In this document: positions 577 through 23,802 of the stretch, in pieces
Layout: each line of letters begins with the position of its first letter
Numbering within the stretch: position 1 is the stretch's first letter
DNA from: Aspidiotus rigidus
Taxonomy: Eukaryota > Arthropoda > Insecta > Hemiptera > Diaspididae
NCBI GenBank assembly: GCA_035079385.1
Contig: JAVHKY010000025.1
Span: forward strand, 13,676,501-13,740,500
Reading direction: 5' to 3'
Length of the DNA: 64,000 bases
The notes under the pieces: model-generated
Database searches by the model: none
Seen by the model: only the letters and a program-made list of their open reading frames with translations
What the model was told of the DNA's origin: nothing
Made by a program: the position numbers and the translations under genes

Positions 577-1391
577 TTCTGAAGATCTTCAAAGTTATGA
601 CTCAAAATTAAAATTCGATATCACACATTCGAACCACCTCGCAAATTATCTGGACTTAACCATATCATTAGAAACTGACGAGATTAATGACAACTTATTG
701 ACACCTAATTTTTCGGTATATCGGAAACCTCACTACACTGGTGTATCCATTCATAATCGATCTCTTCACCCTATATCTCAAAAACTATCTGTGGTTCACT
801 CGTCCATCAACAGAATGCTGCGACTTCCTCTTAGCCAGGAGGCCAAGGAGAAAGAAACGTGCTTTATCGAACAAATCGCCGAGAAAAATGAATTAAAGGT
901 TGATGTTCGGAAATTAATCAAACGAAAAAGTCTCCGCCTAATGTTGTCTTCATCTGCTTCATCGATCGAATTTTCCAATTTTATCAACCAAATCTTGCCT
1001 CAAAGATCCAATCCCGAAATTGGAGAAGTCTGGAATCTATCAACTGAAATGTATGTGTGGCGATGTTTATATCGGGCAATCTGGTCGATCTATAAAGATT
1101 AGGTTCAATGAACATCTACGTGATTTCAAAAATCTTCAAAATTCCTCAAAAAAGTCACCAGATTCTCCCTCAGCCATGGCTAGACATTGTAACCAAGAAA
1201 ACCACAGCTTCGATGGAGTCGTTGCCTCCCCCCTCCAATATTGTGAGAAAGGAGCTAAGATGAACCGATTAGAAGAGTATTATACTTTAAACTCTATAAA
1301 TCGACACTGTAATAATGTTCTAAATGACTCAGACGTTTTTTTCAATCCTTTTATACGTTATATGCTAGATGAGTCACCTGTTCGTACATGA
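577..1391 (+). mobile_element. Penelope-like retroelement, RT C-terminus plus GIY-YIG endonuclease
   Basis: From about 577 one frame reads as the end of a PLE reverse transcriptase: a LDLTISLE-like strand, NFSVYRKPHYTG and SVVHSSINRMLRLPLS, the usual palm/thumb landmarks of the family. It stays open to 1102. The GIY-YIG endonuclease lies in another frame; its open part from 1020 to 1391 contains GIYQLKC and YIGQSGRSIKIRF. The change of frame falls where the inverted-repeat arm begins (about 996), so the RT and the endonuclease are no longer one ORF here. The N-terminal two thirds of the RT are absent. This is a broken 3' copy of an element that in intact form copies itself by target-primed reverse transcription. 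Confidence 0.85.
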
Positions 1392-1417
1392 AATTTTCTC
1401 ATTTCGGTTTTCTTTTT

Positions 1418-1461
<44 letters not shown>

Positions 1462-1562
1462 CCTTCGTTTCATTCTCTTACGTATCACTCGTAGGTTATT
1501 CTCCGCAATGTTGCTCAGTTACGCCTGATGATGTACGGCTACTTGTACGAAACCGGTCGCGT
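996..1562 (+). repeat. Right inverted-repeat arm of the PLE
   Basis: Forward arm complementary to 1-536. It holds the GIY-YIG coding part, a T run of about 40 bases (1420-1461) and the ribozyme. The sequence separating the arms (537-995) is the RT fragment. Confidence 0.85.
1521..1562 (+). ncRNA. Hammerhead ribozyme, PLE type
   Basis: All core parts are visible: stem I strand ACGC (1521-1524), CTGATGA (1525-1531), stem II GTAC/GTAC (1533-1536 and 1545-1548) around a short loop, GAAA (1549-1552), palindromic stem III ACCGGT (1552-1557), cleavage triplet GTC ending at 1558, and the partner stem I strand GCGT (1559-1562). A stem III this short is thought to work best as a dimer, which fits an element arranged as repeated arms. 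Confidence 0.75.
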
Positions 1563-1868
1563 TAAAATAAAGGGTCAATTGTGGACTTGAAATATTAATT
1601 TTAATTTTGTGTATATTAATTTTAATTTTGTGAATTTTGATCTTTATTTAAATTTCTATATTTTGGCTCCTTGTAAAATTCAAAATTTCGTTTTCAAAAT
1701 TACACCCTGTGTTCCACCATTGACTTTCAATCTGTTACGAGTGTGATAAAACTGTTAATAATGTTCTCGAATACTCGTACTCACGAGGAAAATGTCACTT
1801 TCATTTACTTCAGCACATGTACTGTTGAACCGAAAAATATAACCAATATTATCACTCGGCGATTATTA
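1563..1868. other. Gap, AT-rich
   Basis: Flank of the PLE. It holds a short direct duplication of an ATTAATTTTAATTTTGTG-like motif (about 1592-1632). No gene seen. Confidence 0.5.
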
Positions 1869-2094
1869 GTTTTTCACAATTCTTGATTTAATATAGGGTA
1901 GAAGACCAGGATAGATAAGCGAGAAAAACTAATAGTCGAATCATATTTACTGTTCTAAGCAGAAGTAATGTCATAAAGTGATCGATGACACGTTCCTGTA
2001 AAATGAAAATAAAAGTTTAAGCTTTGAAAAAAGGAAAAGGGGAGAGTTAAGAAGTGAAAATTGAGTAGAGTGCATGTAAGCTGAGTAAATCCCA

Positions 2095-2301
2095 TTAAAT
2101 ATGTGTTATGGTCACATCCTTGGTTAATTCGTTCAATCGCAACCTCCATAACTCATATACCAAATAACCACCCTTAAAGTTATTACATCGCTGAGGAGAA
2201 GTTGAGGTAAGTTTGAGTGGCTCCTGAGTAATACTCAGATCCCACTCAAACTCGGTATCAATATTTAGGATGGTATAAACAACATTTTGTGCGAATTGCA
2301 A
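2095..2301 (-). CDS. Repeat-borne 68-aa ORF, function unknown
   Basis: An ATG-initiated ORF lies within the 480-bp repeat; it begins MQFAQNVVYTILNIDTEFEW. It is open in the copies at 2095-2301 and 9982-10188, which differ by one residue (EWDL versus EWDP). In the middle copy (about 2575-2781) a T-to-A change turns the Lys codon of NNFKGG into a stop. I recognise no domain, and it has no signal peptide or membrane segment. It may be a fragment of a mobile-element or viral gene, or chance coding in a young repeat. Confidence 0.35.
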   Translation of the reverse strand: MQFAQNVVYTILNIDTEFEWDLSITQEPLKLTSTSPQRCNNFKGGYLVYELWRLRLNELTKDVTITHI

Positions 2302-2574
2302 TTTAATCCGACAATTAGAAAAAAAATTGAGAAATTTTTCACCGGATTATTATTTTTTCACATTTCTTGATTTAATACAGAATAGAAGTTTGTACATATC
2401 AGGACAGATGAGCGAAAGAAAAGTTGATTTTGTAGATTTATCAATTGTTGTAAGAAGATGACATATCGTGAAGGGGTTGTTGACACGTTCCTGTAGAATG
2501 AAACTAAATGTTTGAGCTTTGGGAAAGAAAACGGGAGAGTTAAGAGGTGGAAATTGAGTAGTGCTGAGTAAATC

Positions 2575-2781
2575 CCATTAAATATGTGTTATGGTCACAT
2601 CCTTGGTTAATTCGTTCAATCGCAACCTCCATAACTCATATACCAAATAACCACCCTAAAAGTTATTACATCGCTGAGGAGAAGTTGAGGTAAGTTTGAG
2701 TGGCTCCTGAGTAATACTCGGATCCCACTCAAACTCGGTATCAATATTTAGGATGGTATAAACAACATTTTGTGCGAATTG
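2575..2781 (-). pseudogene. Repeat-borne ORF, copy 2, with stop
   Basis: Same reading frame as 2095-2301. A single substitution near 2655 creates an in-frame TAG where the other copies read FKGG. Otherwise it is nearly identical. Confidence 0.4.
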
Positions 2782-2832
2782 CAATTTAATCCGACAATTA
2801 GAAAAAAAATTGAGAAATTTTTCACCGGATTA

Positions 2833-3177
2833 TTATTTTTTCACATTTCTTGATTTAATACAGAATAGAAGTTTGTACATATCAGGACAGATGAGCGAAA
2901 GAAAAGTTGATTTTGTAGATTTATCAATTGTTGTAAGAAGATGACATATCGTGAAGGGGTTGTTGACACGTTCCTGTAGAATGAAACTAAATGTTTGAGC
3001 TTTGAAAAAAGGAAAAGGGGAGAGGATTGAACTTTTGTCAATCATTAATGCAATATTTTGAAAGTCACTATTAAATTGATTAGAAATTTTTTTTACCTCC
3101 GGATAATCTTGAATAATATCATCTAAATCATTGAGATTTGGCATATGTCCACGTGCATAAGTTTTTAGAAGATCCAT
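2833..3177 (-). CDS. Small ORF, chimeric with the 480-bp repeat
   Basis: Starting at the ATG complement of 3175-3177 the ORF reads MDLLKTYARGHMPNLNDLDD and is open for 114 residues. The first half is unique sequence with an acidic, helical look. The second half, from about ILSPFPFFKAQ, runs into the third copy of the 480-bp repeat and ends in KSRNVKK. The alternative GTG start at 3207 is unlikely in an arthropod. It is divergent from the ORF at 3265, with 87 bp between them. Not recognised; it may be the 5' part of an old gene whose end was replaced by repeat. Confidence 0.3.
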   Translation of the reverse strand: MDLLKTYARGHMPNLNDLDDIIQDYPEVKKISNQFNSDFQNIALMIDKSSILSPFPFFKAQTFSFILQERVNNPFTICHLLTTIDKSTKSTFLSLICPDMYKLLFCIKSRNVKK

Positions 3178-3209
3178 TTTTAATATAAAATAAATTATAC
3201 TTTTCACAA

Positions 3210-3250
3210 ACCTTCACTGACCTTCACTGACCTACACTAACCTTCACTAA
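3210..3250. repeat. Four short direct repeats between divergent ORFs
   Basis: CCTTCACTGA-like units recur at about 10-11 bp spacing (CCTTCACTGA, CCTTCACTGA, CCTACACTAA, CCTTCACTAA) in the gap between two divergent ORFs. They could be a binding-site cluster or the edge of an inserted element. Confidence 0.5.
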
Positions 3251-3264
3251 AAAGAACGATTGAA

Positions 3265-3627
3265 ATGAAAGATAGAATGTTTCTTTTAAAAAATATGAAT
3301 ACAGAAAATGATTTTAAAATTTGTAAGTTTAAAAGTTGGGGATCTTACCGAATGATCATTCTGAGAGAAATTAAAAATTCGAATTATAGATTTAATCCAA
3401 ATTCTAAATATAAAAATATGTTGGGTAATAAATGGGATATTGTTTTTAGGGGTGAATTAGATATAGGGTATATTGACATTAAGAAAATGATTGATAAATT
3501 TATTGAAAAGTCTCATAAATCTATACCTATGAAGAAAAAAGAAAGAAGATATGAAAAGCATGAGAAAGAGACGCAAAAAGAGTATATGAATAGGATGGTA
3601 AACCAAATAGAACATGAAACTGAGTGA
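3265..3627 (+). CDS. Hypothetical 120-aa protein
   Basis: An ATG-initiated ORF of 120 codons, AT-rich and lysine-rich. The middle has a plausible globular stretch (KFKSWGSYRMIILREIK, WDIVFRGELDIGYIDIKKMI). The C-terminus is highly charged and probably helical (KKKERRYEKHEKETQKEYM). No known domain, signal peptide or membrane segment. The divergent arrangement with the ORF at 2833-3177, the AT-rich codons and the surrounding repeats suggest a mobile-element or integrated-virus gene rather than a host gene, but this is inference. Confidence 0.35.
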   Translation: MKDRMFLLKNMNTENDFKICKFKSWGSYRMIILREIKNSNYRFNPNSKYKNMLGNKWDIVFRGELDIGYIDIKKMIDKFIEKSHKSIPMKKKERRYEKHEKETQKEYMNRMVNQIEHETE

Positions 3628-4887
3628 AATCATAAGAAATTGAATACATGATATGGTTGTATGCTCAAGGTCGTCAACTGGTCAACGCCTTACCAATTCA
3701 ACACGACAGTACACCTGTTCAAATTCGACAGATAGACGACAGTACACCTCTTCAAATTCCACAGATAGACGACACCTGTTCATGAAAATTTTGATCCCTC
3801 CGAGACATTAGTCTTATGACCGCAACAAGTACAAACGCGAGCATAGCTTCTCTCCTCTTTTTACTCTATCTTTACAGGCTTAACGAGTACGTTCCTATCA
3901 TTCATCTTGCGGGCGCTATGAGTACAATCGCTCATATACTTACTACAGTACAGAGTACCTACGTCATATTCTATACTGTCATATTCTTCTTCTCTCAATC
4001 TTAATAATTCGAGAATATTCGCAAAAATTTGATTTAATTTCAATATGTAGGCCGCGCAACGAGTATAAGCGCGCATATCCCTAGACATACAGCGGGTTCT
4101 CGAATACTGAGCGCAACGAGTACAAACGCAGAATACATTGGTCTTATAGACGCAACGAGTACAAGCGCGAGTCTGAGGTCTCTATACCCGCGTTTTTTCT
4201 CGTAAAAAAAATAGTACTGTACAATGATGACGAGAGACAAACGTCACTAAAACGCCTGTCTATTCTTCTTCTCCCTCAAAAGAAAAAAATATTTGGCATA
4301 ATTTATCTAGATGTATTGCTTATCAAGGCTACTGTTTGGTGAAATCTCATCCGTTGACGCATGTAAGACGATGAAATTTTCAAGATGTTACGGACGGTTG
4401 GTCACGCAAAAAAAAAAAAACAAAAAACAAAAAAAAAAACAAAAAAAAACAAGCCGAGTAAGAAGTCTTATCTCGACTTATTTGAGGAAAATTATTCAAA
4501 ATTACTTTTACGTTGAACCCTTATCATTATGTCTTATCAATGCAACTCGTACTCATCAATACGTGAAAAAAGTTTCCCTGCAACCTCTCCCTCTTTCTTC
4601 TCAATCTGATTGTCGTAATCTTCTTAGCTGATTCACACGCACATTCCAATTTTGAACCGGACGAGCAAATGGTAGTCTTATGAAATCGTCAGTGAGATAA
4701 AAAATGAAAACTGAAAAAAAGTAATAACTGGGAGTGATAGGCAATTTTAATCACACAGTGGTAAGATTCCATTTACATACGTGTACATACAAATTCTTGT
4801 AGAATGCATTCTTGCGATAGAGAGCCAATTCAGTTGGGTACATCTTCCGTTCATTTGTCGTAATATTTCTCAAATTTTACCTTATTA
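3628..4887. other. Gap with degenerate short repeats
   Basis: At 3705-3785 a unit of about 37 bp is repeated (GACGACAGTACACCT... followed by ACAGATAGAC). At 3820-4175 the motif CGCAACGAGTACAAACGCGAG recurs in decayed forms about six times. An A-rich CAAAAAAAC tract lies at 4409-4450. A TCAGT initiator-like motif at 4830-4834 is 54 bp upstream of the next gene's ATG; no clear TATA box. Confidence 0.45.
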
Positions 4888-7236
4888 ATGATGAGACCTA
4901 ATGAATTTATGCTGATTGTTTTGGTCATCGCTCTGTGTCGTGGATTCACGTCGTCACTAACCGAGGGAAAGTTGAATACCGAAGATGCCCCGTCTTCAGA
5001 GGCAACGCCCAGGATTCTCGAATCACGATCAACGCAAATTGGAAAACAGTGTTTAACCTTACCGAAAATAAGTGATCCGAGCGTCAAAACTCTAATTGAA
5101 CAGAAGTGTTATGTAGATAAAACCGCGTACTTGGACCAATTGATGCGGGTAGGAGAGAAGTTCTACTTCCTGTCGCGCCCCAGGAGGTTCGGCAAAACAC
5201 TTTTGGTCGACACATTGCAGGAATTGTTCGAACTTGGAGGAGACAACAAGTTATTCAAGGATACAGAAATTTATCGACGACGTGATGGTGTTTGGTCGCG
5301 TTATCCAACTATTCGACTCGATTTTTCAGATGGAATTGTATCTACTTCTGTCGCTGCATTTAATCGTACCACGTTAAAGCTAATAAACGACCAAGCTAGA
5401 AACCATGAGATTGATCTAGGTGCGTTCCAAGACATCGAAGTTGCCATTAAAGAATTGATTTATAGGTTGAATAAAAAGTATAATAATGCGTCGGTAGTCA
5501 TCCTTATCGACGAATACGACAATCCATACACAAGTGCTTACCCAGACATGGAAACGGCTTCAGGTATCTTACGTAGTATGCAAAGTTTTTACAAGACATT
5601 AAAAGCTCAGCATAAGAAAATCCATTTTAATTTGGTGACCGGCATCACTCGACTGGCACTATCGGAATTTTTCTCAGGAATGAACGCGGCAACGGACCTA
5701 ACGATGGATCCGGATTACGCAGGAATTGTGGGGTTCAATAAGAGCGAGCTACTACAGTATTTCGATGATTTGATCAATGATGTCGTACGCGAAACTGGAA
5801 AGAAGAAAGAATATGTCCTTGAAACCATGAGGTGCTGGCACGACGGATTTCAGTTTTGCGAAAAAGATGAGTCTCTCTACAGCCCGGCTTCTGTATTAGG
5901 CTATATAAGGACCAAAGCTGTGTCAACCACTTCCTGGAGTGAATCAGGTGGGCCTAGTAAATTTCTAGTTGAGAAGTTAAAAGAATTTCCGAAAAAGGCT
6001 CTCAAATTCTTTATAAATGAGCAAAACAATTTCCTAGCAGATAAAAAGGAAGATATGGAGCCGCCTATAAGAGCCTCCAGAAGAGATCTTGTAGGAAAAA
6101 ATGACTTCACGAAACTTGATATTCAAGCGTTAACAGCACTTCTCTTCCACAGCGGGTATTTTAGTATCAGAGAGTATGACGTCAAATCTGATGTTTTTAC
6201 TCTGAATTTCACCAATTTGGAACTTAGAGAAGATTACATACTGCGTGTTTCCCAAAGTATAAAGGAAATATATGAAGGAGACTTGGATGAAAAAATCGAA
6301 ATGATGAAGATAGCGCTCGATGTACGTGACTGGAAAAATTTCACTGGAACACTAGACTCTTACAATGCAAATATTCCGTACCAAATAACCGTAAACCAGA
6401 GAAAAGGGTTAGAAGCTTGGTTCCAATTCAATTTGTATTTGGTGTTAAAGTTCGCAAATTACCATCGAAAAATATCAGTAGGAATAGAAGAGTCTACAAG
6501 TATGGGACGGATAGACATTGTATTTGATAATGGACTCGGTGTATATATATTCGAGCCGAAGATGGAAGACAATCCCGAAAATCCGGTGTATGAATGCAAA
6601 GAAAAATATGTAAAAAAATATTTATTCGATCCGAAAAAATTGAACGTATATTGCATTGGCATTAAGTTTACAACGGAAGGACATATTCACAGTTGGGGCG
6701 TAGCGTCATTTTCATATAACGGCAATTTAATCACGGAAGAGGGATCGATAAAACTGACTAATGAACTCAGTCCTGAAGAACGTAAAGATATACGGGTTAA
6801 CGTGACGAATTACAGAAGCGAAAATCCTGAATGCAAGCTGGAATCAGAAAGACTCTCTGATTTTCTAGAACAACTAGGGCCCACAATGGAAGGTCAACTG
6901 ATATTCGCCGAAAAATTTTTTAAGAATACACCTATCAAGAGTCTATGCCCTGTTCTAAGAAACATAAAACCATTAATAGAACAGCCTAACATAAAAGGGA
7001 TGATATTCTCCTTTTTGAAAGCAGCCGATATACACGAAGAATACCTGGAAAAGGAAAAACCATTGGATCCTTGTGAATATGAGTTTTTATATTTACAAGC
7101 CCTTCGACCTGCGCAAAAAAAACTTTTCAAAGATGAGAACAACCCGTTGAACATTCCACGACCAAAATCCGCATTTTCAGAGCGGAGTCACGACAGCGTG
7201 AGGTGGCCGCGCTACGCCTACACAACAGTAAAGTGA
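4888..7236 (+). CDS. Secreted AAA-ATPase-like / PD-(D/E)XK nuclease protein, candidate lateral transfer
   Basis: Uninterrupted 782-codon ORF. Residues 1-24 form a likely signal peptide (hydrophobic FMLIVLVIALC followed by small residues). Residues about 55-345 match the AAA-ATPase-like family common in bacteria: CYVDKTAYLDQL, Walker A in SRPRRFGKTLLV (96-107, K103 T104), Walker B VVILIDEYDNP (203-213, D208 E209), then LVTGITRLALSEFFSGMNAA and a GF..SELLQYFDDL segment. Residues about 515-620 carry the linked PD-(D/E)XK fold: GRIDIVFDNGLGVYIFEPKM with D543, E556 and K558 in the D...ExK pattern, then an IKFTTEGHIHSWG-like strand. The tail (about 640-782) is not recognised. In bacteria this pair of domains occurs in one protein and is suspected of nucleic-acid cleavage. 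Here the lack of introns and added signal peptide point to an acquired gene put into the secretory pathway. The start is the first of two adjacent ATGs. Bacterial or symbiont contamination is unlikely given the repeats on both sides. Confidence 0.8.
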   Translation: MMRPNEFMLIVLVIALCRGFTSSLTEGKLNTEDAPSSEATPRILESRSTQIGKQCLTLPKISDPSVKTLIEQKCYVDKTAYLDQLMRVGEKFYFLSRPRRFGKTLLVDTLQELFELGGDNKLFKDTEIYRRRDGVWSRYPTIRLDFSDGIVSTSVAAFNRTTLKLINDQARNHEIDLGAFQDIEVAIKELIYRLNKKYNNASVVILIDEYDNPYTSAYPDMETASGILRSMQSFYKTLKAQHKKIHFNLVTGITRLALSEFFSGMNAATDLTMDPDYAGIVGFNKSELLQYFDDLINDVVRETGKKKEYVLETMRCWHDGFQFCEKDESLYSPASVLGYIRTKAVSTTSWSESGGPSKFLVEKLKEFPKKALKFFINEQNNFLADKKEDMEPPIRASRRDLVGKNDFTKLDIQALTALLFHSGYFSIREYDVKSDVFTLNFTNLELREDYILRVSQSIKEIYEGDLDEKIEMMKIALDVRDWKNFTGTLDSYNANIPYQITVNQRKGLEAWFQFNLYLVLKFANYHRKISVGIEESTSMGRIDIVFDNGLGVYIFEPKMEDNPENPVYECKEKYVKKYLFDPKKLNVYCIGIKFTTEGHIHSWGVASFSYNGNLITEEGSIKLTNELSPEERKDIRVNVTNYRSENPECKLESERLSDFLEQLGPTMEGQLIFAEKFFKNTPIKSLCPVLRNIKPLIEQPNIKGMIFSFLKAADIHEEYLEKEKPLDPCEYEFLYLQALRPAQKKLFKDENNPLNIPRPKSAFSERSHDSVRWPRYAYTTVK

Positions 7237-7601
7237 ATACGGTTTCACGACCAAATCACGCAATACGAGAGCGCACGGACCCATTCTACCGTCAGATCAC
7301 GATGGCGTGAGCGCGCTCAACACACTGCATGGATACCGCAACGAAAAAAAAGAAGACGGTCACCCATCCAAGTGGTGACCACGACTGAATTTGCTGATCA
7401 TTGAGCGTAGCGCGTTAGGTTTAATAGTGATATAGCTAGGGTACTTACAGTGGTAGATTCGAAAGAAGGGCTATATTACCAAATCATAGATCAGTGCACC
7501 GCAACACACCACCAACACACCACAGCGTTACAATAGGGTGTAATGTGGTATACACTTCAAGGTGTACACGCTATTGTCACCGCCACCTCACGCCTTGAGC
7601 A
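7237..7601. other. Gap downstream of the AAA/nuclease gene
   Basis: No gene seen. Slightly GC-richer sequence with recurring GTGAGCGCGC-like words continues the composition of the preceding gene's end. Confidence 0.4.
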
Positions 7602-7856
7602 ATGTTCAACGGGAACGATTTCAAGATTTCTTTTCAAAATTTTGTTAATTTTATTTGTAAATGTGAAGAACCTAAGGATGCCCCGTCTATTGTTTCTTTC
7701 TATACTGAGGACATTCCAAACCTACTCACCCTGCTGAATAAGAGTCACCCTCTCGTCAAGGAACCATTAATAAAGAGTCGCATCACACGTATCCAAACGG
7801 CTCTTAAAGGAACCGGGAGTAAAAAGAAAAGTAATCGCTCGCAACACCCAAAATGA
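7602..7856 (+). CDS. Hypothetical 84-aa ORF downstream of the AAA/nuclease gene
   Basis: An ATG ORF ends in a basic tail (KGTGSKKKSNRSQHPK). The body (FQNFVNFICKCEE, IPNLLTLLNKSHPLVKEPLI) has the same flavour as the tail of the 782-aa protein (AEKFFKNTPIKSLCPVLRN, KPLIEQPNIKGMIF): short helices with leucine and proline spacing. It may be a leftover C-terminal module of a second copy, or a last exon. Weak evidence; no intron signals decide it. Confidence 0.3.
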   Translation: MFNGNDFKISFQNFVNFICKCEEPKDAPSIVSFYTEDIPNLLTLLNKSHPLVKEPLIKSRITRIQTALKGTGSKKKSNRSQHPK

Positions 7857-7859
7857 ATG

Positions 7860-8740
7860 TCATAAATTATATTTAGTAGTATTAGCCGTAGTTATTGTAA
7901 TTAAATTGTATGCTTTATCGTGCACGGAATTTCCGATCACGTTTTAATTTTTACACCGATTTCATTGATAAATTTTACTCGAGAAACATCAACAGAACTG
8001 CGGAATCCGCATCATAAATGGTATGCTGTGTCTGGAGAGAAAGTAACGTGGCGACTTCTAGTACCCACAATTTCAATTGAGGAGAATGTGGGTGAAAAAT
8101 CCTCCCGCGTTTCCAAAGGTGAAAGTAATGAGCATCAATTTTTTCAGAAAAAAGGGTCAATTTTGATTCTATTTTAACTTGTGTTTTTTGCACACGCAGG
8201 GTGTATGATAGTATCTCCTGGAACAAGGGTGGGCCATGTTTTTGAATATTATAAAAGTTTCACATATTTTGGTGACGAAAATGGGGAAAAATGATCGTGT
8301 ATCTTTTTCAGGCACGCGTTCAGGGTCCGATCCTTAGCTTGATTGAGGCTTATGAAGTTTGTTGAGACTTTGAGAAATTCGAATTTTCCTATCATTTTTA
8401 TAATTTTAGAGGGTAAAAATAGAGGAAAATGTGTTGAGAGAAAACACAGGGTAGATAATCATCGTCCCCTAGGGTATATGGTGGTAGCCCTTAAGGTATT
8501 GAGAGTAATTGTAGGGTTCTTCACACCAATCTCAAGCATCATGATCAAAAAGTGAGCGTGTTTATAATGTGCGCGGAAATTTTTGCACGCGTTCTTGATA
8601 ATTCTTAATATTTTCTGAGGAACTTGATATAATTATTTGAGATTTCTTTAGGGTGACAGGTTCTACCATGAACGGAAATTCTGATCATGGTTTAATTTTT
8701 GACTCCTCTCAATTTCTAGTATGAAAATAGATAAAACTTT
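7860..8740. other. Gap, AT-rich, no gene seen
   Basis: Short ORFs on both strands overlap each other, with no recognisable motif or codon bias. Confidence 0.4.
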
Positions 8741-9440
8741 GATACAAAATATGGAAACGTTCTCTGATTTAAGAGATCTTTTGAATTCTCATAAAAAATA
8801 TGAAAATTGATACAAGTTGGATACAAAAATATGAAAATTTTTGACTTGTATGAATTCTAGTTAAAACGATGAGAAATTAATGTAAAAGTATGACCTTTGG
8901 ATTCTAATTAAAAACATGAAAAATTGATACAAAAATATGGACTCCGAATTTCTTTTAGAATTGAAACAAATTGTATACAAATAGATACAACATGTATGAA
9001 AACTTTTGATCCTCTAAATTTTTTTAGAATTGATGCAAATTGTATACAAATTGATAGAAAGTGCATGAAAATTTTTGATCCTGTGAATTTCTTTTAGAAA
9101 TGATACAAATTGATGTAAAATGTATGAAAATTTTTGAACCTCTGAATTTCTTTTAGAATTGATACAAATTGATACAAAATGTATGAAAATTTTTTATTCC
9201 CCGAATTTCTTTTAGAATTGATACAAATTGCATACAAATTGATACAAAATGTATGAAAATTTTTGAACCTCTTAATTTATTTCAGAATTGATACAAATTG
9301 ATATAAAATGTATGAAAATTTTTAACTCTCTGAATTTCTTTCAGAATTGATACAAATTGATATAAAATGTATACAAATGTTTTAAAAAAATTTTGAGAGT
9401 ATGAATTTCTATTAAAAATGATACAAAATTGATGCAAAAA
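8741..9440. repeat. AT-rich minisatellite, units about 60-75 bp
   Basis: About nine decayed copies of a unit with the order GAATTTCTTTTAGAATTGAT, ACAAATTGATACAAAATG, TATGAAAATTTTTGA-CCTCT. Some units contain an extra ACAAATTG step, giving two lengths. The array grades into degenerate copies at both ends. Confidence 0.75.
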
Positions 9441-9871
9441 TTAAGAGTTGTAAATAAGGAAATGAGTGGGCAAAAAAGAGATGAAATAGATACAAAAGTA
9501 TGGAAATATTCATACTCTCTGAAAATTGTTCCGCCACTGAATTTTAATAGTTGTGCAATTGTGAAAAATAAGCCTGGGGTATAGGAAAAACGTCATGTCG
9601 AATGAGTGGGTCAATATTAGAGCACCTAGAATTTTGAGTAAAATGGATGAAATTGATACAAAAATGATACAAAAGTTTGAAATTTTTTGGAGTAGTGAGT
9701 AAGAAAAAATGGTGTGAAATGATTGATATTTACCTTAAAAATAACTAAATTAACGATTTGAAAAATAGGGAAATTTGATGATTTTTTGAGGGGTGAAAAA
9801 ATGGCTCTGGCGCATAGAAAAATAGGGGTGGCGCACGAGTGGCGCAGAACATACATTGTATATCTACTATC

Positions 9872-10360
9872 GTGAAGGGGTTGTTGACACGTTCCTGTAG
9901 AATGAAACTAAATGTTTGAGCCTTGGGAAAGAAAACGGGAGAGTTGAGAGGTGGAAATTGAGTAGTGCTGAGTAAATCCCATTAAATATGTGTTATGGTC
10001 ACATCCTTGGTTAATTCGTTCAATCGCAACCTCCATAACTCATATACCAAATAACCACCCTTAAAGTTATTACATCGCTGAGGAGAAGTTGAGGTAAGTT
10101 TGAGTGGCTCCTGAGTAATACTCGGATCCCACTCAAACTCGGTATCAATATTTAGGATGGTATAAACAACATTTTGTGCGAATTGCAATTTAATCCGACA
10201 ATTAGAAAAAAAATTGAGAAATTTTTCACCGGATCATTATTTTTTCACATTTCTTGATTTAATACAGAATAGAAATTTGTACATATCAGGACAGATGAGC
10301 GAAAGAAAAGTTGATTTTGTAGATTTATCATTTGTTGTAAGGAGATGACATATCGTCAAG
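9872..10360. repeat. Dispersed copy of the 480-bp repeat
   Basis: Nearly identical to the units at 2353-3026, starting at the ATCGTGAAGGGGTTGTTGAC word. A diverged continuation after 10360 (GAATGAGAAGTAGAGTTTGAG, GAGTTCAGAGGTCGAA) looks like an older neighbouring copy, so this locus was probably also an array. Confidence 0.85.
9982..10188 (-). CDS. Repeat-borne 68-aa ORF, open copy
   Basis: Same ORF as at 2095-2301, open from ATG to stop, with one residue difference (P for L). Function unknown. Confidence 0.3.
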   Translation of the reverse strand: MQFAQNVVYTILNIDTEFEWDPSITQEPLKLTSTSPQRCNNFKGGYLVYELWRLRLNELTKDVTITHI

Positions 10361-10766
10361 TGCTTCATCGCCCATTTTTATGGAATGAGAAGTAGAGTTT
10401 GAGCCTTAGCAAAGGAAGCGGAGTGAGTTCAGAGGTCGAATTTAAGTAAAATGAATGTTGGGTCCGTGAAGGATCCATAAATCTTGTGTCTTTATACAGC
10501 TGGAAATGACTTTTAATTGGCATTAATTTAGTTTCTTCGTTACCACCACGTGTTTTTTTTTTTTTTTTTTTTTTGGACAGAAGACGACTTTTCAACTGTG
10601 AGTGTCATTGGAGAAAGCTGGGTACATTCTGCGCGAGTGAAAGTATTGACTATATGAATGACTCGTATCTTTGTTGTCGACCTCAAATTTTTGTATAAAT
10701 TTCAGTATTGGTCGTTTTTGTTCTCATTTGTGCAATATTGAAAAATTCGGAATGAAATGGTACCTA

Positions 10767-10892
10767 AGTACATTACTGTACGGGCAGGGAAAGTAAGGAA
10801 TATCGCAACGAGTTCAATGTTTACAACACGAGCAAAGCGAGTGTAATAATTTGAACGAGTTGCGATACTTACTTGCTGTCCGTAATGTAGGA
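10767..10892. repeat. Foldback MITE-like hairpin
   Basis: Imperfect inverted repeat. The left arm TACATTACTGTACGGGCAGG... ends in ATCGCAACGAGTTCAA, and the right arm is its complement ending in GTCCGTAATGTA. Arms are about 42-47 bases with a few mismatches; the spacer of about 40 bases contains ACACGAGCAAAGCGAGTGT, itself an inverted motif. Confidence 0.65.
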
Positions 10893-12039
10893 TATTTTTT
10901 TAATCACATACGTCGAAAGTACGTTTATTTTAGACAGCGAAAACTTCCTTTTGTTAAACGTTTCACACCCTAATGTCATCAATTTAGCCCAACAGTGGTG
11001 ATAGAAACGAACTTTCGTACACTGTATCGACGCTTATGGAAATGCGATTTTTGTTCACTTTTGTTACCTATAAGTTGAGAAAAAATATGTAAATTACTGA
11101 TCAGTAATAAAAATAAATTGTAACAAATAAATAACAAGTATATTTGTCTTTTCTCTCTAAATAAACAAATAAAATAATCTGTCACTCCCTTGTATAAATA
11201 TCTTGTGTAAATTTCGTTCTCAAAAGTTGTGCAATTGATTTATTCCTATACGGAAAATTGAAAGGTTAGGTTAACACAGAAATGCTCGCGCATTGATTTT
11301 CAACCAGTCTGTACAAAGAGTACATTCCCGTTATTAAACGGTCATTAAACCCTACTGAACCCTACGTATCCGTGTGATGTAAAGGCGTTCTTTTCTTCTC
11401 TTCAATGTGTATCTTTGGGATGTGTGTGGTCGATTTCTTCTGTCACGGTTAATACAGGATCGATGCGTTTAAAAATAGAATACAGGTCAAGAAACCGTCG
11501 TCCTTTCCTCGTTCATCAGTTTTACCGATCATAGGATGTACTGTACCCCATCGGACCGTCGGACCACGAAAAAATCAGCGGAGATCTTTTTTTTCTTTGC
11601 ATTTCATAGCATATAGAGTACGTTTGTAGGATTTTCTAAAGTTTAATGTTTCTTTATATATGTGTAAGACGACAATTAATTATATTCGCGAAATCGTTTA
11701 TTCTTGATTTATGCGAGATACATAAATCGTGAAATAATGTTCCTTTACGGATGCAAAAAAATACAATCCAAACTACAACGTATATCAATTACAAAGAAGC
11801 ACGGAAGAACCGTACGTACAGTATCAATACTTTAATATTTATCAGGCCGAGTCGGACAGGATACGACAGTGATGCAGCGTAGTGGGGTAATGCAAGATGC
11901 ATCGTGTATGCGTCTTTACATATGTATGTGTGTGCAAATTTTGTCCTGGGTCATTTTTAAGAAAAAAAGATTCATCCATTTATAAGAATATCAAGTCTTA
12001 GAAGGCTGACAATAGATGGCAAAGTGAGCGAAAGATGTT
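10893..12039. other. Gap, no gene seen
   Basis: AT-rich, only short non-coding-looking ORFs. Upstream, a T run lies at 10552-10574, before the MITE. Confidence 0.4.
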
Positions 12040-12400
12040 GGTTCTAAAGATGGAGAGAAATGGTGAGATCGAGATATTTGATGGAGAGACTATCTAGTTC
12101 TAGCGTGAAATGGATGTTCTGATGAATGGAATTTAAGTGAGAAAGAAGGGATTTGAGACCGGACGACAAGCCATTCCAAATGCAAAAAATGTTGTCAACA
12201 AAACGAAGCTAAAGAAGAATGTAAGGTTCAGGGAGAATGGTCCTGTTAGGAGATCCGATTCAAACTTGCCCATAATAACGTTGGCGACGAGCGAAGAAGG
12301 AGGCGCGCCCATTTGAAAGCCATTGGAAAATTTGTAAAAAACATCCCAGTAAAGACACATTTTCTTGTTCAGATATGAAGAGGTAGGGCGCGGAACTCGG
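12040..12400 (-). pseudogene. Decayed PLE reverse transcriptase fragment
   Basis: Minus-strand translation gives FQMGAPPSSLVANVIMGKFE (the PLE motif before the catalytic strand). In a second frame it gives LRFVDNIFCIWNGLSS and then SIHQNIHFTLELDSL, IKYLDLTIS, which correspond to the RT palm with the (Y/F)VDD box read as FVDN. At least one frameshift (about 12210) and a stop separate the pieces, and the second catalytic Asp is changed to Asn, so it is inactive. The copy is diverged from the PLE at the left edge. Confidence 0.75.
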
Positions 12401-12930
12401 AGATCATGATAAGATTGGAGGTGAGGAGATCCAGTATGCAGCCAATTTTCTGAGCGACCAGGTTATCATTGTGCTTGAAAGAAATGAGTGACGAGTCTTG
12501 ATCAAAGGAAGTGTCTTCTACTTGAGAAGTGATTTAATGATACACTGAAAAAATCAAATTTGGGGTGTGGTAACTGTTTCCTCATACACTGTACTGGTTT
12601 CTATATTTTAGTGAAGGTTACCATCCACAAGGACTGTAGTCAATTTATTGTATACATTGAGTACATGAAGTTCAGGCACTGAGACTGCAAGACATTTTTT
12701 TTTTTTTTTTTTTTAGTACATATTGTTTGCGTTTATTACCTACTAAAAGTGAATGGAACAAATTGCAAAATTTTTAGAAATCCAACCTAAGTAAGGACGG
12801 GTACCATATGAGAGAAATTTTAGTTCATGGTACCTAATACTTAGTAGCTGAAACAAAATGAAGAGTTTTGTCCTGATTACAATATAGTAGTTAATGTAAA
12901 TAGGAAACCAGACGATACATCCAGGAATCA
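12401..12930. other. Gap with T run
   Basis: No gene seen. A T run at 12697-12715 may be the A tail of a minus-strand retrocopy. The first degenerate satellite-like words appear near the right end. Confidence 0.4.
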
Positions 12931-15900
12931 AACATAAACCTGAAACTATTCACACAAATAGTAAAACTTCTGGATGAACAAATCTTTCTACACTGTACAA
13001 TCATGGTTTGGCTAAAAATGATTCTCTTGCTTTATTCTGGTCAATTTCTAGAAGCTATGTCATGACTTAGCGAAATTGAAGCTACTTGTAAAACCAAGAT
13101 GAATTTCTCCAATAAATTATGGTTTAACTCTATATGTTCACCCATAATCTGCCTACTCTACTGTTACAGTTCAGCTGGGAATAATTCTGTCTCTTAATTC
13201 TGGTCAAGTACTAGCCCCTATGTCATTGCTTAGCAAAAATGAAGCCTCTAGTGAGACCAAGATGAATTTTTCCAATAAATTATGGGTTAATACTCTATGT
13301 TAAGCCATAATCCTACTATACTGTAATGTTGAAGTTTCGCTGGCAATAATAATGTTTCCCAATTCTGGCCAAATACTAGTCCATATGTCACAGCTTGGTA
13401 AAAATGAAGCCTCTTGTAAAAGCCAGATGAATTTTTCCAATTAATTATGGCTTAACAATCTATGTTCACCCATAATCTTCCTACTCTACTGTTGAAGTTT
13501 AGCTGAAAATAATACTGTTTCCAAATTCTAGTCAAGTACCAGTCCACATGTCATAGCTTGGCAAAAATAAAGCCTCTTGAAAAGTTAGATGAATTTTTCC
13601 CATAAATTATGGGTTAACACTCTATGTTCAGCCATAATCTTACTATACTGTAATGTTGAAGTTTAGCTGGAAATAATACTGTGTCCCAATTCTGGTCAAA
13701 TACTAGTCCATATCTCACGGCTTAACAAAAATGAAGCCTCTAGTGAGACCAAGATGAATTTTTCCAATAAATTATGGGTCAACACTCTATGTTCACCCAT
13801 AATCCTTGTACTGTATTGTTGCAGGTCCGCTGGAAATAAGTCTATTTCTCAATTCTGGGCAAGTACTAGTCCCTATGTCAGAGCTTAGCAAAAATGAAGC
13901 CTTTTTGTAAAAGCCAGATGAAGTTTTCCGAAAAATTATTGGTTAACACTCTATGTTCACCAATAATCTTCCTACTGTACGGTTAGAGTTCAGCTGGGAA
14001 TCATTCTGTTTCCTAATTCTCGTCAAGTACTAGTCCCTATGTCATAGCTTAGCAAAAATGAAGTCTCTTGCAAGACCGAAATGAATTTTTCCAATAAATT
14101 ATGGGTTAACATTCCATGTTCACCCATAATCTTTGTACTGTACTGTTCCAGTTCAGCTGGAAATAAGTCTATTTCTCAATTCTGGTCAAGTATCGGTCCA
14201 CATGTTGTAGCTTGGCAAAAATAAAGCCTCTTGAAAAGTTAGATTAATTTTTCCCATAAATTATGGGTTAACACTCTCTGTTCACCCATAATCTTCCTGC
14301 TCTACTGTTACAGTTAAGCTGGGAATAATTCTATATCCCAATTCGTGTCAAGCACTAGTGCCTATGTCACAGCTTGGTAAAAATGAAGCCTCTTGTAAAA
14401 GCCAGATGAATTTTTCCAATTAATTATGGCTTAACAATCTATTTTCACCCATAATCTTCCAACTCTACTGTTGAAGTTTAGCTGAAAATTATACTGTTTC
14501 CAAATTCTAGTCAAGTACCAAACCACATGTCATAGCTTGGTAAATATAAAGCCTCTTGAAAAGTTGGATGAATTTTTCCCATAAATTATGGGTTAACACT
14601 CTCTGTTCACCCATAATCATCCTACTCTACTGTTACAGTTCAGCTGGGAATAATTCTATATCCCAATTCGTGTCAAGCACTAGTGCCTATGTCAGAGCTT
14701 AGGAAAAATGAAGCCTCTTGTAAAACCCAGATGAATTTTTCTAATAAATTATGGGTTTATACTCTATGTTCAGCCATAATCTTACTATACTGTAATGTTG
14801 AAGTTTAGCTGGAAATAATACTGTGTCCCAATTTTGGTCAAATACTAGTCCATATCTCACGGCTTAACAAAAATAAAGCCTCTAGTGAGACCAAGATGAA
14901 TTTTTCCAATAAATTATGGGTTAACACTCTATGTTCACCCATAATCTTTGTACTGTATTGTTGCAGTTCAGCTGGAAATAAGTCTATTTCTCAATTCTGG
15001 GCAAGTACTAGTCCCTATGTCAGAGCTTAGCAAAAATGAAGCCTTTTGTAAAAGCCAGATGAAGTTTTCCAAAAAATTATTGGTCAACACTCTATGTTCA
15101 CCAATAATCTTCCTACTGTACGGTTAGAGTTCAGCTGGGAATCATTCTGTTTCCTAATTCTCGTCCAGTACTAGTCTCTATGTCATAGCTTAGCAAAAAT
15201 GAAGTCTCTTGCAACACCGAAATGAATTTTTCCAATAAATTATGGGTTAACATTCCATGTTCACCCATAATCTTTGTACTGTACTGTTGCAGTTCAGCTG
15301 GAAATAAGTCTATTTCTCAATTCTGGTCAAGTACCGGGCCACATGTTTTAGCTTGGCAAAAAAAAAGCCTCTTGAAAAGTTAGATTAATTTTTCCCATAA
15401 ATTATGGGTTAACACTCTCTGTTCACCCATAATCATCCTAGTCCACTGTTACAGTTCAGCTGGGAATAATTCTATATCCCAAATCGTGTCAAGCACCAGT
15501 GCCTATGTCAGAGCTTAGGAAAAATGAAGCCTCTTGTAAAACCCAGATGAATTTTTCTAATAAATTATGGGTTAATACTCTATAATCAGCCATAATCTTA
15601 CTATACTGTAATGTTGAAGTTTAGCTGGAAATAATACTGTGTCCTAATTCTGGTCAAGTACAAGTCCCTGTTTCAAATCTTAGCAAAAATGAAGCCTCTA
15701 GTGAGACCAAGATGAATTTTTCCAATAAACTATGGGTTAATACACTATGTTCAGCCATAATCCTACTATACTGTAATGTTGAAGTTTAGCTGGCAATAAT
15801 ACTGTTTCCCAATTCTGGCCAAATACTAGTCCATATGTCACAGCTTGGTAAAAATGAAGCCTCTTGTAAAAGCCAGATGAATTTTTCCAATTAATTATGG

Positions 15901-18900
15901 CTTAACAATCTATTTTCACCCATAATCTTCCAACTCTACTGTTGAAGTTTAGCTGAAAATTATACTCTTTCCAAATTCTAGTCAAGTACCGGGCCACATG
16001 TTTTAGCTTGGCAAAAAAAAAAGCCTCTTGAAAAGTTAGATTAATTTTTCCCATAAATTATGGGTTAACACTCTCTGTTCACCCATAATCTTCCTGCTCT
16101 ATTGTTACAGTTCAGCTGGGAATAATTCTATATCCCAATTCGTGTCAAGCACTAGTGCCTATGTCAGAGCTTAGGAAAAATGAAGCCTCTTGTAAAACCC
16201 AGATGAATTTTTCTAATAAATTATGGGTTAATACACTATGTTCAGCCATAATCCTACTATACTGTAATGTTGAAGTTTAGCTGGCAATAATACTGTTTCC
16301 CAATTCTGGCCAAATACTAGTCCATATGTCACAGCTTGGTAAAAATGAAGCCTCTTGTAAAAGCCAGATGAATTTTTCCAATTAATTATGGCTTAACAAT
16401 CTATTTTCACCCATAATCTTCCAACTCTACTGTTGAAGTTTAGCTGAAAATTATACTGTTTCCAAATTCTAGTCAAGTACCAAACCACATGTCATAGCTT
16501 GGCAAATATAAAGCCTCTTGGAAAGTTGGATGAATTTTTCCCATAAATTATGGGTTAACACTCTCTGTTCACCCATAATCATCCTAGTCTACTGTTACAG
16601 TTCAGCTGGGAATAATTCTATATCCCAAATCGTGTCAAGCACCAGTGCCTATGTCAGAGCTTAGGAAAAATGAAGCCTCTTGTAAAGCCCAGATGAATTT
16701 TTCTAATAAATTATTGGTTAATACTCTATAATCAGCCATAATCTTACTATACTGTAATGTTGAAGTTTAGCTGGAAATAATACTGTGTCCTATTTCTGGT
16801 CAAGTACAAGTCCCTGTTTCAAATCTTAGCAAAAATGAGGCCTCTAGTGAGACCAAGATGAATTTTTCCAATCAACTATGGGTTAATACTCTATGTTCAC
16901 CCATAATCTTTGTACTGTATTGTTGCAGTTCAGCTGGAAATAAGTCCATTTCTCAATTCTGGGCAAGTACTAGTTCCTATGTCAGAGCTTAGCAAAAATG
17001 AAGCCTTTTGTAAAAGCCAGATGAAGTTTTCCAAAAAATTATTGGTCAACACTCTATGTTCACCAATAATCTTCCTACTGTACGGTTAGAGTTCAGCTGG
17101 GAATCATTCTGTTTCCTAATTCTCGTCAAGTACTAGTCCCTATGTCATAGCTTAGCAAAAATGAAGTCTCTTGCAAGACCGAAATGAATTTTTCCAATAA
17201 ATTATGGGTTAACATTCCATGTTCACCCATAATCTTTGTACTGTACTGTTGCAGTTCAGCTGGAAATAAGTCTATTTCTCAATTCTGGTCAAGTACCGGG
17301 CCACATGTTTTAGCTTGGCAAAAAAAAAGCCTCTTGAAAAGTTAGATTAATTTTTCCCATAAATTATGGGTTAACACTCTCTGTTCACCCATAATGTTCC
17401 TGCTCTACTGTTACAGTTCAGCTGGGAATAATTCTATATCCCAATTCGTGTCAATCACTAGTGCCTATGTCAGAACTTAGGAAAAATGAAGCCTCTTGTA
17501 AAACCCAGATGAATTTTTCTAATAAATTATGGGTTAATACTCTATAATCAGCCATAATCTTACTATACTGTAATGTTGAAGTTTAGCTGGAAATAATACT
17601 GTGTCCTATTTCTGGTCAAGTACAAGTCCCTGTTTCAAATCTTAGCAAAAATGAAGCCTCTAGTGAGACCATGATGAATTTTTCCAATAAACTATGGGTT
17701 AATACTCTATGTTCAGCCATAATCCTACTATACTGTAATGTTGAAGTTTAGCTGGCAATAATACTGTTTCCCAATTCTGGCCAAATACTAGTCCATATGT
17801 CACAGCTTGGTAAAAATGAAGCCTCTTGTAAAAGCCAGATGAATTTTTCCAATTAATTATGGCTTAACAATCTATTTTCACCCATAATCTTCCAACTCTA
17901 CTGTTGAAGTTTAGCTGAAAATTATACTGTTTCCAAATTCTAGTCAAGTACCAAACCACATGTCATAGCTTGGCAAATATAAAGCCTCTTGAAAAGTTGG
18001 ATGAATTTTTCCCATAAATTATGAGTCAACACTCTCTGTTCACCCATAATCATCCTACTCTACTGTTACAGTTCAGCTGGGAATAATTCTATATCCCAAA
18101 TCGTGTCAAGCACCAGTGCCTATGTCAGAGCTTAGGAAAAATGAAGCCTCTTGTAAAACCCAGATGAATTTTTCTAATAAATTATGGGTTAATACTCTAT
18201 GTTCAGCCATAATCTTACTATACTGTAATGTTGAAGTTTAGCTGGAAATAATACTGTGTCCCAATTCTGGTCAAATACTAGTCCATATGTCACAGCTTGG
18301 CAAAAATGAAGCCTATTTTAAAAGCCTGATGAATTTTTCCAATTAATTATGGGTTAATACTCTATGTTCACCCATAATCTTCCTACTCTAATGTTACAGT
18401 TCCGCTGGGAATAATTCTGCCTCTTAATTCTGGTCAAGTACAAGTCCCTGTGTCAAATCTTAGCAATAATGAAGACTCTTGTAAGACCAACAATAATGAA
18501 GACTCTTGTAAGACCAAGATGAATTTTTCCAATAAATTATGGTTTAAAACCTTCATGTTCACCCATAATCTTCCTACTTTCCTGTTACAGTTCAGCTGGG
18601 AATAATTCTGTCTCTTAATTCTGGTCAAGTAAAAGTCCCTATGTCCATACTTAGCAAAAATGAAGGCTCTTGTGAGACAAGATGTATTTTTCCAATAAAT
18701 TATGGTTAAACACCTTCATATTCACATATCAGGGCCTGTCACCCATAATCTTTCTACTGTAATATTGAAGTTTAGCTGAAAATAATACTATTCCCCAATT
18801 CTGGTCAAGTACTAGGCCCTATATCATTGCTTAGAAAAAATGGAGCCTCTAGTGAGACCAAGATGAATTTTTCTAATAAATTTGGGTTAAAACTCTATGT

Positions 18901-21047: not shown

Positions 21048-21084
21048 ACACCAGGCCAGAGTGAAGGGGGTCAGTGTCGATGTT

Positions 21085-21405
21085 GATGTGATGGTTTGGA
21101 GGAAACTCACAAGGAGCATTCTGGATTCCATCACTTTTTCCCCCCACAGATGTGATCCGTGATGTTTGTATGTGTTGGATCTGTCCCCCATTTCCTGGGG
21201 AAGTCCTCCCCCCAATTTGCTCAGACCTTCCGCCCATAGGGCTTCAGTCCATTGTTTTACAACCCTACCTCATGTTAAGGGTTGCTTGTGAGGCTGATTA
21301 ACCCCAGCGTGGTCTTTACAAGGTGGAATGTAGTGATGGTAGAGGCTTTTATATTGGTGAGACCAGCCGCCAAATGAAGGTGGGAGGAGCTGAGCACCTG
21401 AAGTC
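21085..21405 (+). pseudogene. PLE GIY-YIG endonuclease relic
   Basis: Around 21320-21400 the plus strand reads KVECSDGRGFYIGETSRQMK followed by VGGAEHLK, which has the GIY-YIG family order (Cys, YIGETSR, EH). The upstream 230 bases have no stable frame. It is much more diverged than the PLE at 1-1562 and directly borders the satellite array. Confidence 0.65.
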
Positions 21406-21837
21406 TTGAAATAAGGGAGACCTAGGGGAGTTAGCTTTTGCTGATAATTTAATATAGCGGCCACAGTTTCCGTGAGGGATCGGAAAGGCTCCTCCATTAG
21501 GAGAACTCCTACCGTAAGTGCTTGAGCATAATTATAAAGATAATGCGTGATCTCAATACCAATGACATTACTGTAATTGAATCGTAGATCCCGGAAGATG
21601 GCTTGATTGAACTGGTTTATGATTCATAGCGGGATTTCTCGTTTGGTCAATCTTAATACCTTCTTTCTCTCCTCCGTTTGTCAGTTGCTTTCATTTTAGT
21701 CCGGAAGATAGTTTATTAACTGAAAGCGCGCGTTGTTTTAATTTTTTCGACGGTTTGCATTGTTTAGTCTCCCTTTGGAGTATTATTATTTTCGCTATTA
21801 TTATGGATAACTGTAACGTAGAAGAACGTATTCGTTT
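21406..21837. other. Gap, no gene seen
   Basis: Probable further remnant of the preceding retroelement; nothing readable. Confidence 0.35.
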
Positions 21838-22195
21838 AATTTTCCCCCTTCCTATCATATATAGCTCGAGAGTAGAAATTTTTCCAAATTTTTAGCCGGA
21901 CAGCGCAAGGCAAATTTCTAAAAAACCTCCCATGGAACAAGTTCTCTGTTAAATATTTTGACTCTCGAACTATATTGTACTAGGCTCATAGTTGGTCTAG
22001 GCCTCCTTGAATTCTCGATACCAAATCCAATTTGACTCATAAAATAGGTTCCCAGCGTTCCTCGTTCAACTTCGTTAAGGAGCCGTCGTTTTTTTTTTCA
22101 GTTTCTTTCTTTATGTGATAGGAAGTAATTTTTTTCCAATTTCCAAGTCCCCCTCGTATCATATATAGCAGGGTGCTTGGGTGTATCCAGTATAA
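21838..22195. repeat. Copy of the CTCGAG foldback repeat family
   Basis: Contains TATCATATATAGCTCGAGAG, GCCGGACAGCGCAAGGCAAA, CATAGTTGGTCTAGGCCTCC and GCGTTCCTCGTTCAACTTCG in the same order and orientation as the right arm at 51531-51762. The TATCATATATAG word occurs again near 22160. Confidence 0.75.
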
Positions 22196-23484: not shown

Positions 23485-23802
23485 GAAATAGGGAATTATT
23501 GAGACTTCGCGCCGCCCCTAAAGACAATTCACGGACATCTTGTGCGGAGTTTGCTTCGGAAATCACCCTAAGGCTACCTGGGGATTTCATAAAAAATACG
23601 GAGGAGGGCAAGATAGTTGACTTTCATGAGTATGTCTAAAAATTTTGCCACGCCTTCCAAAATTTACACCCAGTTTTCCTCAACATCTGCAAAGGGAAGA
23701 AAAATATTTGTCCATTCAGATCTTAAGGATGTAACACATGTTTACGTAAGAGTAGGAAGAGTCCAACGCCCGCTTGAAACACCATACAAAGGACCATTTT
23801 GA
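23485..23802 (+). pseudogene. Gypsy-type LTR retrotransposon integrase C-terminus, frameshifted
   Basis: First frame: LLRLRAAPKDNSRTSCAEF and ITLRLPGDF, matching the conserved end of the Ty3/Gypsy integrase core (LRAAPK, AAEL, LRLPGD). After a stop near 23636 the second frame carries DLKDVTHVYVRVGRVQRPLE and then TPYKGPF, the typical HVFVR..L..PY.GP segment that precedes the chromodomain-like end. The break is a frameshift at about 23625-23640. The rest of pol is not seen, so this is an old fragment. Confidence 0.75.

Follow-up and report, generated by a model that had tools for sequence, protein, structure and literature searches.

A 64,000-nucleotide stretch of the genome of the scale insect Aspidiotus rigidus (contig JAVHKY010000025.1, positions 13,676,501 to 13,740,500 of the forward strand), hereafter called the window, contains an intronless open reading frame (ORF) of 782 codons with an ATG start at 4888-7236 on the plus strand. 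An initial annotation described this ORF as encoding a secreted AAA-ATPase-like and PD-(D/E)XK nuclease protein; rather than a lone, intact host gene, it is a member of a set of at least 54 related loci. The termini found behind the close copies of this AAA-PDDEXK gene, the inverted ends that bracket four more distant paralogues and the presence of a polymerase neighbour together make it very likely that the gene is carried by Maverick/Polinton-type elements as an accessory (cargo) gene. For the complete explanation, a cargo gene of such elements in a scale insect with the history and function proposed below, we estimate a probability of roughly 0.8.

The window protein was searched against the 441-Mb genome (102 contigs), and the best 58 of 385 candidates were scored, so that all copy numbers given here are lower bounds. 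At least 61 match rows were obtained and tabulated as at least 54 AAA loci, seven of the 61 rows being dropped for lying within 10 kb of another row on the same contig. Sixteen loci are close copies: 15, including the window, are 72-100% identical over most of their length, and the sixteenth is frame-broken. A terminus reading 5'-AGTAG... follows all 16 in the correct orientation, 2.2-3.4 kb 3' of the gene. The 26-base form of this terminus motif occurs at 131 places in the genome with at most three mismatches (reversed-pattern control, 0); the locus table used 68 of these (0-2 mismatches) and left out 32 with three mismatches and 31 more. An opposite terminus lies 5.7-28.5 kb upstream of the match in four close copies (C95, C72, C13 and one C29 copy), and no opposite end was found for the other 12, apart from two C24 copies that each have the end of the other opposite them, 34.5 kb away.

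A second terminus motif, derived from the C15 and C23 ends, was found at 11 places in the genome (reversed-pattern control, 0), all of which were used. Inverted pairs of this motif bracket four distant paralogues (C15, C23, C72 and C1; 37-38% identical), which are thereby placed within elements of 11-18 kb with inverted AGTAG ends; one 2.2-kb pair and one single terminus account for the remaining places. The element ends of this lineage read AGTAGT or AGTAGA, and the left end of the C23 element is an inverted match of the C15 right end (87% over 596 columns). Target duplications of 6 bp are exact in four of the five end pairs, namely C23 (TGTATT), C72, C1 (CACATT) and the 2.2-kb derivative (TATATG), with C72 and C23 counting as one insertion since their flanks are the same. 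Both AGT-repeat ends and target duplications of 6 bp have been described as characteristic of Mavericks (PMC8097293, available portion of the text).

The genes that accompany the AAA gene are also shared between the two lineages. At C15, the genes are arranged as AAA gene, 120-aa gene, divergent gene of ~220 aa, small ORF and, last, a polymerase ORF of 1,368 codons. Over the parts that were read, this order is matched in L033 (C23), as well as in L017, L018 and L027, the C15 locus itself being L029/L030. The polymerase ORF at C15 (L030) matches PF03175 with an E value of 2.3e-46, identifying it as a protein-primed DNA polymerase (PolB), and fragments related to it are present in L017, L018 and L027. 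In the window, the 120-aa ORF lies at 3265-3627 on the plus strand and has no Pfam match; it stays beside the AAA gene in the close copies and in the C15/C23 paralogues (47-49% identity). Only the first ~61 codons of the divergent neighbour gene remain in the window (3027-3207, minus strand), where the left break of the element truncates it. Beyond the equivalent of that break, C3, C72 and a C29 copy carry it at its full length of 206 codons, and C95 and C13 carry pieces of it; this ~200-aa gene is followed in C95, C72 and C13 by a small ORF that is Cys-rich and then by a polymerase N-terminus.

Some further features were observed in these copies. The 3' end of a polymerase-like ORF is repeated in inverted orientation beside the AAA gene of L028 (1719-2116 and 8867-9267), and these repeats apparently belong to terminal inverted repeats (TIRs). 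Residues 808-866 of the L030 polymerase ORF (924-5027) show a very weak similarity to Vsr endonuclease (E 0.3), and L013 8314-9441 gives an Endonuclease VII match below threshold (E 1e-3). The C15 element also holds a 2.8-kb insert (L029 482-3321) with ORFs that look transposase-like by eye, and the C23 element has no such insert.

The window itself contains the AAA-side half of a Maverick-type element, cut on the left at ~3027 inside the ~200-aa gene and intact at its right terminus. The right TIR occupies 8971-9868, with the terminus at 9868 reading AGTAGATATACAATGTATG on the reverse strand, and a minisatellite with a main period of 59 bp lies in and beside it (8942-9439). Starting at base 1, these final 898 bp align with the left end of a C29 element whose two ends stand 10.4 kb apart (88% over 947 columns). 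Repeats do lie on both sides of the ORF, as the initial annotation reported: on the left, a tandem array of a 483-bp unit, together with its outer edge, extends over 1806-3024 and belongs to a larger repeat that holds the element fragment, and the 483-bp unit resumes at 9869-10448, directly abutting the Maverick terminus. The remainder of the larger repeat (10480-23600) consists of two repeated parts, 10480-12900 and 21060-23600, separated by 163-bp satellite arrays (13034-21044). Both parts occur at more than 30 genomic places each, the full-length ones at 98-100% identity, and the left flank stretch likewise occurs at more than 30.

Three forms of flank were distinguished among the close copies. 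Ten copies, including the window, have the 483-bp tandem array on both sides. In C3, C95, C72 and two C29 copies, the similarity to the window is limited to ~3027-9316, beginning at 4241 in one of the C29 copies. Finally, C13 shares 3027-9868 and has different DNA outside both ends, the terminus equivalent to 9868 abutting other DNA there and not the 483-bp unit. The element fragment is thus lodged in the tandem array of a high-copy larger repeat, which now spreads it. As a whole, the larger repeat (window 1806-23600) exceeds 15 kb and is found at more than 30 places, mostly at 98-100% identity, many of them without an AAA locus; its 163-bp satellite arrays change orientation and are common to the C41 and C56 copies.

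The gene in the window is, in addition, broken. A 470-bp insert at 7144-7613, with inverted ends of ~12 bp and a 3-bp AAC duplication, supplies codons 753-782 and the stop, so that the native part of the gene (4888-7143, plus strand) ends at codon 752 and its displaced 3' end, approximately the last 79 codons of the 831-codon copies, lies at 7614-7856 on the plus strand. The C41 copy, which apart from the insert is 99.97-100% identical to this locus over 20 kb, has the same sequence on either side and lacks the insert; the insert matches at 32 other places among the matches listed (95-100% identical, two partial). In 13 of the remaining 15 close copies the gene runs to 821-831 codons and in L021 to 791; in L028 the frame is broken. 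The ORF of the initial annotation is therefore real and intronless, but its native length was wrong, and a long native tail reaching residue 782 was rejected, its end being insert-coded. A single ORF of this type can look intact although it is a damaged piece of a larger repeat.

The native part encodes a hydrophobic leader at about residues 8-20, an AAA part (71-260), a nuclease part (509-597) and the beginning of a C-terminal region that is all-helical. AAA-ATPase_like (PF09820) matches residues 71-260 with an E value of 2.2e-39 (135.8 bits, cut-off 26.1), and the Walker and D...E-x-K residues named in the initial annotation hold up, G102-K103, D208-E209, D543, E556 and K558 being conserved in 90% or more of the 47 sequences aligned. 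The hydrophobic N-terminal segment is equally real: the top 13-residue Kyte-Doolittle mean of the window protein is 2.53, whereas 116 bacterial-type homologues have a median of 0.61 and one of them reaches 2.0. Such a leader is unusual for the AAA-ATPase_like/PDDEXK family. By the same measure, L031/L032 and the three close copies that were checked exceed 2.0, as do P0001 and one Bemisia protein; the other Bemisia protein of the two reaches 1.75, and hydropathy revealed no leader in the open frame of L034. These values are consistent with the proposed retargeting to the secretory pathway in several copies, L034 being the exception. The window, L031, P0001 and the Bemisia proteins have in common a pair of cysteines (C55 and C74 in the window) that lie before and in a YVDKT motif. 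The pair is missing in the alignment from four bacterial-type rows and from L029/L033; it would be compatible with an oxidising compartment.

In the sister copies L029 and L033 (C15 and C23), a predicted 139-nt GT-AG intron splits the leader, with alternative splice choices also possible; the same scan gave no more than a weak candidate in L034 and none in the close copy L013. The initial annotation had named intron-bearing orthologues among long-standing eukaryotic proteins as grounds for doubting lateral acquisition, and what was found is half of that, namely sister copies with a predicted intron in the same genome. An AlphaFold2 model (mean predicted local distance difference test score 82) is all-helical from residue 629 onward, after the AAA and nuclease parts. 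A fold search with the whole model placed ORC/Cdc6-type AAA+ proteins on top, with AAA+ matches to ORC2, Vps4 and the RdrA ring, all at low TM-scores, and assigned no match to the helical C-terminal region. This region, of ~210 residues in the close copies, is common at least in part to P0001, P0002 and Bemisia P0242, and is absent from L029/L033 and P0003. Rfam gave 0 matches at gathering scores, NCBIfam gave 0 matches, and a PDB sequence search gave no meaningful match.

The origin of the gene was examined in a tree of 60 rows with an uncertain root, comprising nine A. rigidus sequences, three insect-type database proteins and 48 others, 47 of them bacterial-type and one, P0007, taken from a eukaryote data set. 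The nine A. rigidus sequences, two Bemisia proteins and P0001 form one clade (100/100) apart from the 48 others, on a long stem (1.14), with the Bemisia proteins nested inside the scale-insect paralogues. The clade supports the lateral acquisition from bacteria suggested in the initial annotation, which has already been published for Sternorrhyncha (PMC11800479, in the accessible part). The best 80 of at least 577 prokaryote relatives, which stand outside this tree, span many phyla and none exceeds 31% identity; the bacterial-type relatives listed are ~25-33% identical. A viral source beyond the genome was also considered. In IMG/VR, 43 loci match the AAA alignment, at most 36% identical, and a search that reached close relatives only gave no match to PolB. 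A bacterial contaminant, which the initial annotation had named as what would overturn its reading, was rejected, the copies being dispersed and surrounded by host repeats and by TIRs or other inverted repeats.

Several observations weigh against the gene being Maverick cargo with a maintained function. The nuclease half of the two-domain architecture is below threshold in the window, PDDEXK_9 (PF08011) at 509-597 scoring 20.9 bits against a curated cut-off of 25.5; its catalytic residues are aligned, and paralogue L029 reaches 27.1 bits, above that cut-off. Neither terminus lies within 35 kb at 34 of the 54 AAA loci. The duplications were read for five end pairs, none of them in the close-copy lineage, and at C15 the match is at five of six positions. 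The polymerase-like ORFs of L013 and L028, judged by eye, have no PF03175 match. L031 and L032, two of the four copies at 54-55% identity, have only ~3.3 kb in common, and AGTAG ends were not found there. None of the 42 genomic matches to the PF04665 packaging ATPase falls inside an AAA-bearing element, and the 16 ORFs compared with Pfam, with no dedicated model for integrase, protease or capsid, included no recognisable gene of these three kinds, in elements that were partly read, with gaps between the parts. Finally, recent pairs mostly have ratios of replacement to silent change (dN/dS) of 0.6-1.1, and the window-L015 pair has a ratio of 4.5 (17 replacement changes and a single silent one), which could mean that the gene is drifting.

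As for selection, dN/dS is 0.22-0.56 in six of seven pairs with dS above 0.3 (the seventh is saturated), the two lowest figures being rough because of saturated dS (2.4 and 2.8), and it is 0.37 for L031-L032 (dS 0.15). Constraint is thus visible only between old lineages, and recent evolution is loose. The initial annotation had argued that selection kept the gene because all active-site residues remain; for the window copy this does not follow, since it is nearly identical to others and is broken.

Since these core genes were not recognised, the AAA-bearing elements are described here as Maverick-type and probably helper-dependent. Fuller Mavericks do exist elsewhere in this genome: nine of the PF04665 loci, matched by eye, lie within 2 kb of PolB, for which 66 match rows were found and 34 loci were tabulated from part of these rows. 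Nine Polintons that have no capsid genes have been described as also jointly devoid of protease and ATPase (PMC4028283, from the part available).

The most probable alternative, which we nevertheless consider unlikely, is a laterally acquired family resident in the host, copies of which were taken up by accident by Mavericks or segmental duplications, so that carriage has no role and the copies are mostly dead freight. The 34 loci that have neither terminus, the missing ends of L031 and L032 (an ORF near L032 is presumably P450-like), the ten close copies within a larger repeat that spreads without any Maverick function and the recent dN/dS near 1 all speak for accidental uptake. However, two diverged lineages retain the same neighbours of the AAA gene (the 120-aa gene, the divergent ~200-aa gene and PolB), and matching ends were found at all 20 loci of these two lineages, which argues for carriage as cargo. 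The AAA-PDDEXK loci that have neither terminus motif (L031, L032, L034 and others) may be resident genes or members of other element lineages.

With the gene taken as Maverick cargo, its history may be reconstructed as follows. A bacterial-type AAA-ATPase/PD-(D/E)XK gene would have entered the insect lineage and then acquired a secretory-type leader, split by the predicted intron in one sister lineage. Maverick-type elements would have carried and multiplied it beside the 120-aa gene, the ~200-aa gene, the Cys-rich ORF and PolB. In the window, one such element lacks its left side and lies in the array of the larger repeat, and a later insert interrupts its AAA gene. As to function, we tentatively propose that the product could enter the secretory pathway, load or remodel a nucleic-acid target by ATP hydrolysis and then cut it, to the advantage of the element or its host in conflicts with viruses, symbionts or rival elements; this part of the explanation is doubtful.

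A different use of the same activities, in which the AAA+ ATPase and PD-(D/E)XK nuclease are the mobility machinery of the element and replace the integrase or process its ends, as we take TnsC/TnsA to do, appears improbable. ORF scans, made with no integrase model, recognised no integrase in the carrying elements, and the fold search ranks ORC/Cdc6-type AAA+ proteins first, at low TM-scores. A secretory-type leader is nevertheless hard to square with nuclear work, C15 is the only one of the 34 PolB loci within 30 kb of an AAA locus, and the 6-bp duplications and AGTAG ends point to an ordinary Maverick integrase, possibly acting in trans. We attach a similarly low probability to a Medea-like maternal-effect selfish toxin or antidote spread by Mavericks, a role brought to mind by the DUF1703 homologue in the Tribolium Medea element (PMC6387759) and by the toxin-antidote element families carried by nematode Mavericks (PMC10680173), both according to the available text of these sources. 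The copies of the present gene, however, are numerous and dispersed. Insects of this group inject saliva and the hydrophobic leader is present, but a secreted venom, salivary or anti-parasite effector, as the initial annotation had suggested, is very improbable, given that no evidence for it was found, the window copy is broken and the close copies are transposon cargo.

The elements resemble published Mavericks and Polintons in their TIRs, AGT-type ends, 6-bp duplications, protein-primed PolB and accessory genes (PMC8097293, portion seen), and differ in that integrase, ATPase, protease and capsid were not recognised in those bearing the AAA gene. As for the gene family, its transfer from bacteria is already published for whiteflies, one psyllid and one scale insect, together with the proposal that it helps to handle symbionts (PMC11800479, accessible part). 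The genes described there share with ours the domain family (PF09820 and PF08011, DUF1703), the bacterial origin and the many copies, and Bemisia nests in the clade, whereas the copies described here bear Maverick ends and the close ones add the C-terminal region. The main text of that paper has no occurrence of Maverick, Polinton or "transposable element". The DUF1703 expansion of Cardinium cCpun has the same two-domain architecture, 10 of its 25 members carrying a predicted signal peptide (PMC6387759, available part), but is found in a bacterial genome, and bacterial-type relatives are distant from the A. rigidus gene.

Cargo of other kinds is known from Mavericks: those of nematodes carry the wosp and krma families (PMC10680173, a meeting report) and those of Curculio weevils carry Rickettsia-derived genes (PMC13419823, a 2026 preprint), in both cases as described in the parts of these sources available. 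Both resemble the present case as non-core genes multiplied by Mavericks, and differ from it in the gene families concerned. The main text of the weevil preprint contains no word starting with "AAA", "ATPase" or "nuclease", and no paper joining the AAA-ATPase_like/PDDEXK family with Mavericks was found among the titles and abstract openings seen. The Maverick as a vehicle for this family therefore looks new, and it extends the known cargo of Mavericks by a secretory-type ATPase-nuclease. Carriage by Mavericks offers a reason for the copy numbers and may help to explain the multiplication of the family in sap-feeding insects; it also sets beside "many independent transfers" an alternative that can be tested, namely that virus-like transposons spread the family. 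It is possible, though we lean against it, that Mavericks have been the vehicle through sap-feeding insects at large, that the repeated "independent" acquisitions published for whiteflies, psyllids and scale insects largely reflect the spread of elements between insects and that the gene was kept for conflict, which, if true, could concern superinfection, symbionts or a Medea-like toxin-antidote role.

Two other parts of the window deserve mention. At its left edge (1-1561), which is also the left edge of the larger repeat, two inverted ORF copies have a fold-back layout, and we take these ORFs to be of the GIY-YIG type and Penelope-like. Further to the right, a transketolase is encoded on the minus strand (32491-34371) by one uninterrupted ORF, which has full-length relatives of the same length in other scale insects. 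Its identity, which by itself makes a scale insect the very probable source of the genome, is 82% with Parthenolecanium corni, 81% with Kerria lacca, 79% with Planococcus citri and 73% with Bemisia, the best database entry reaching 93%.

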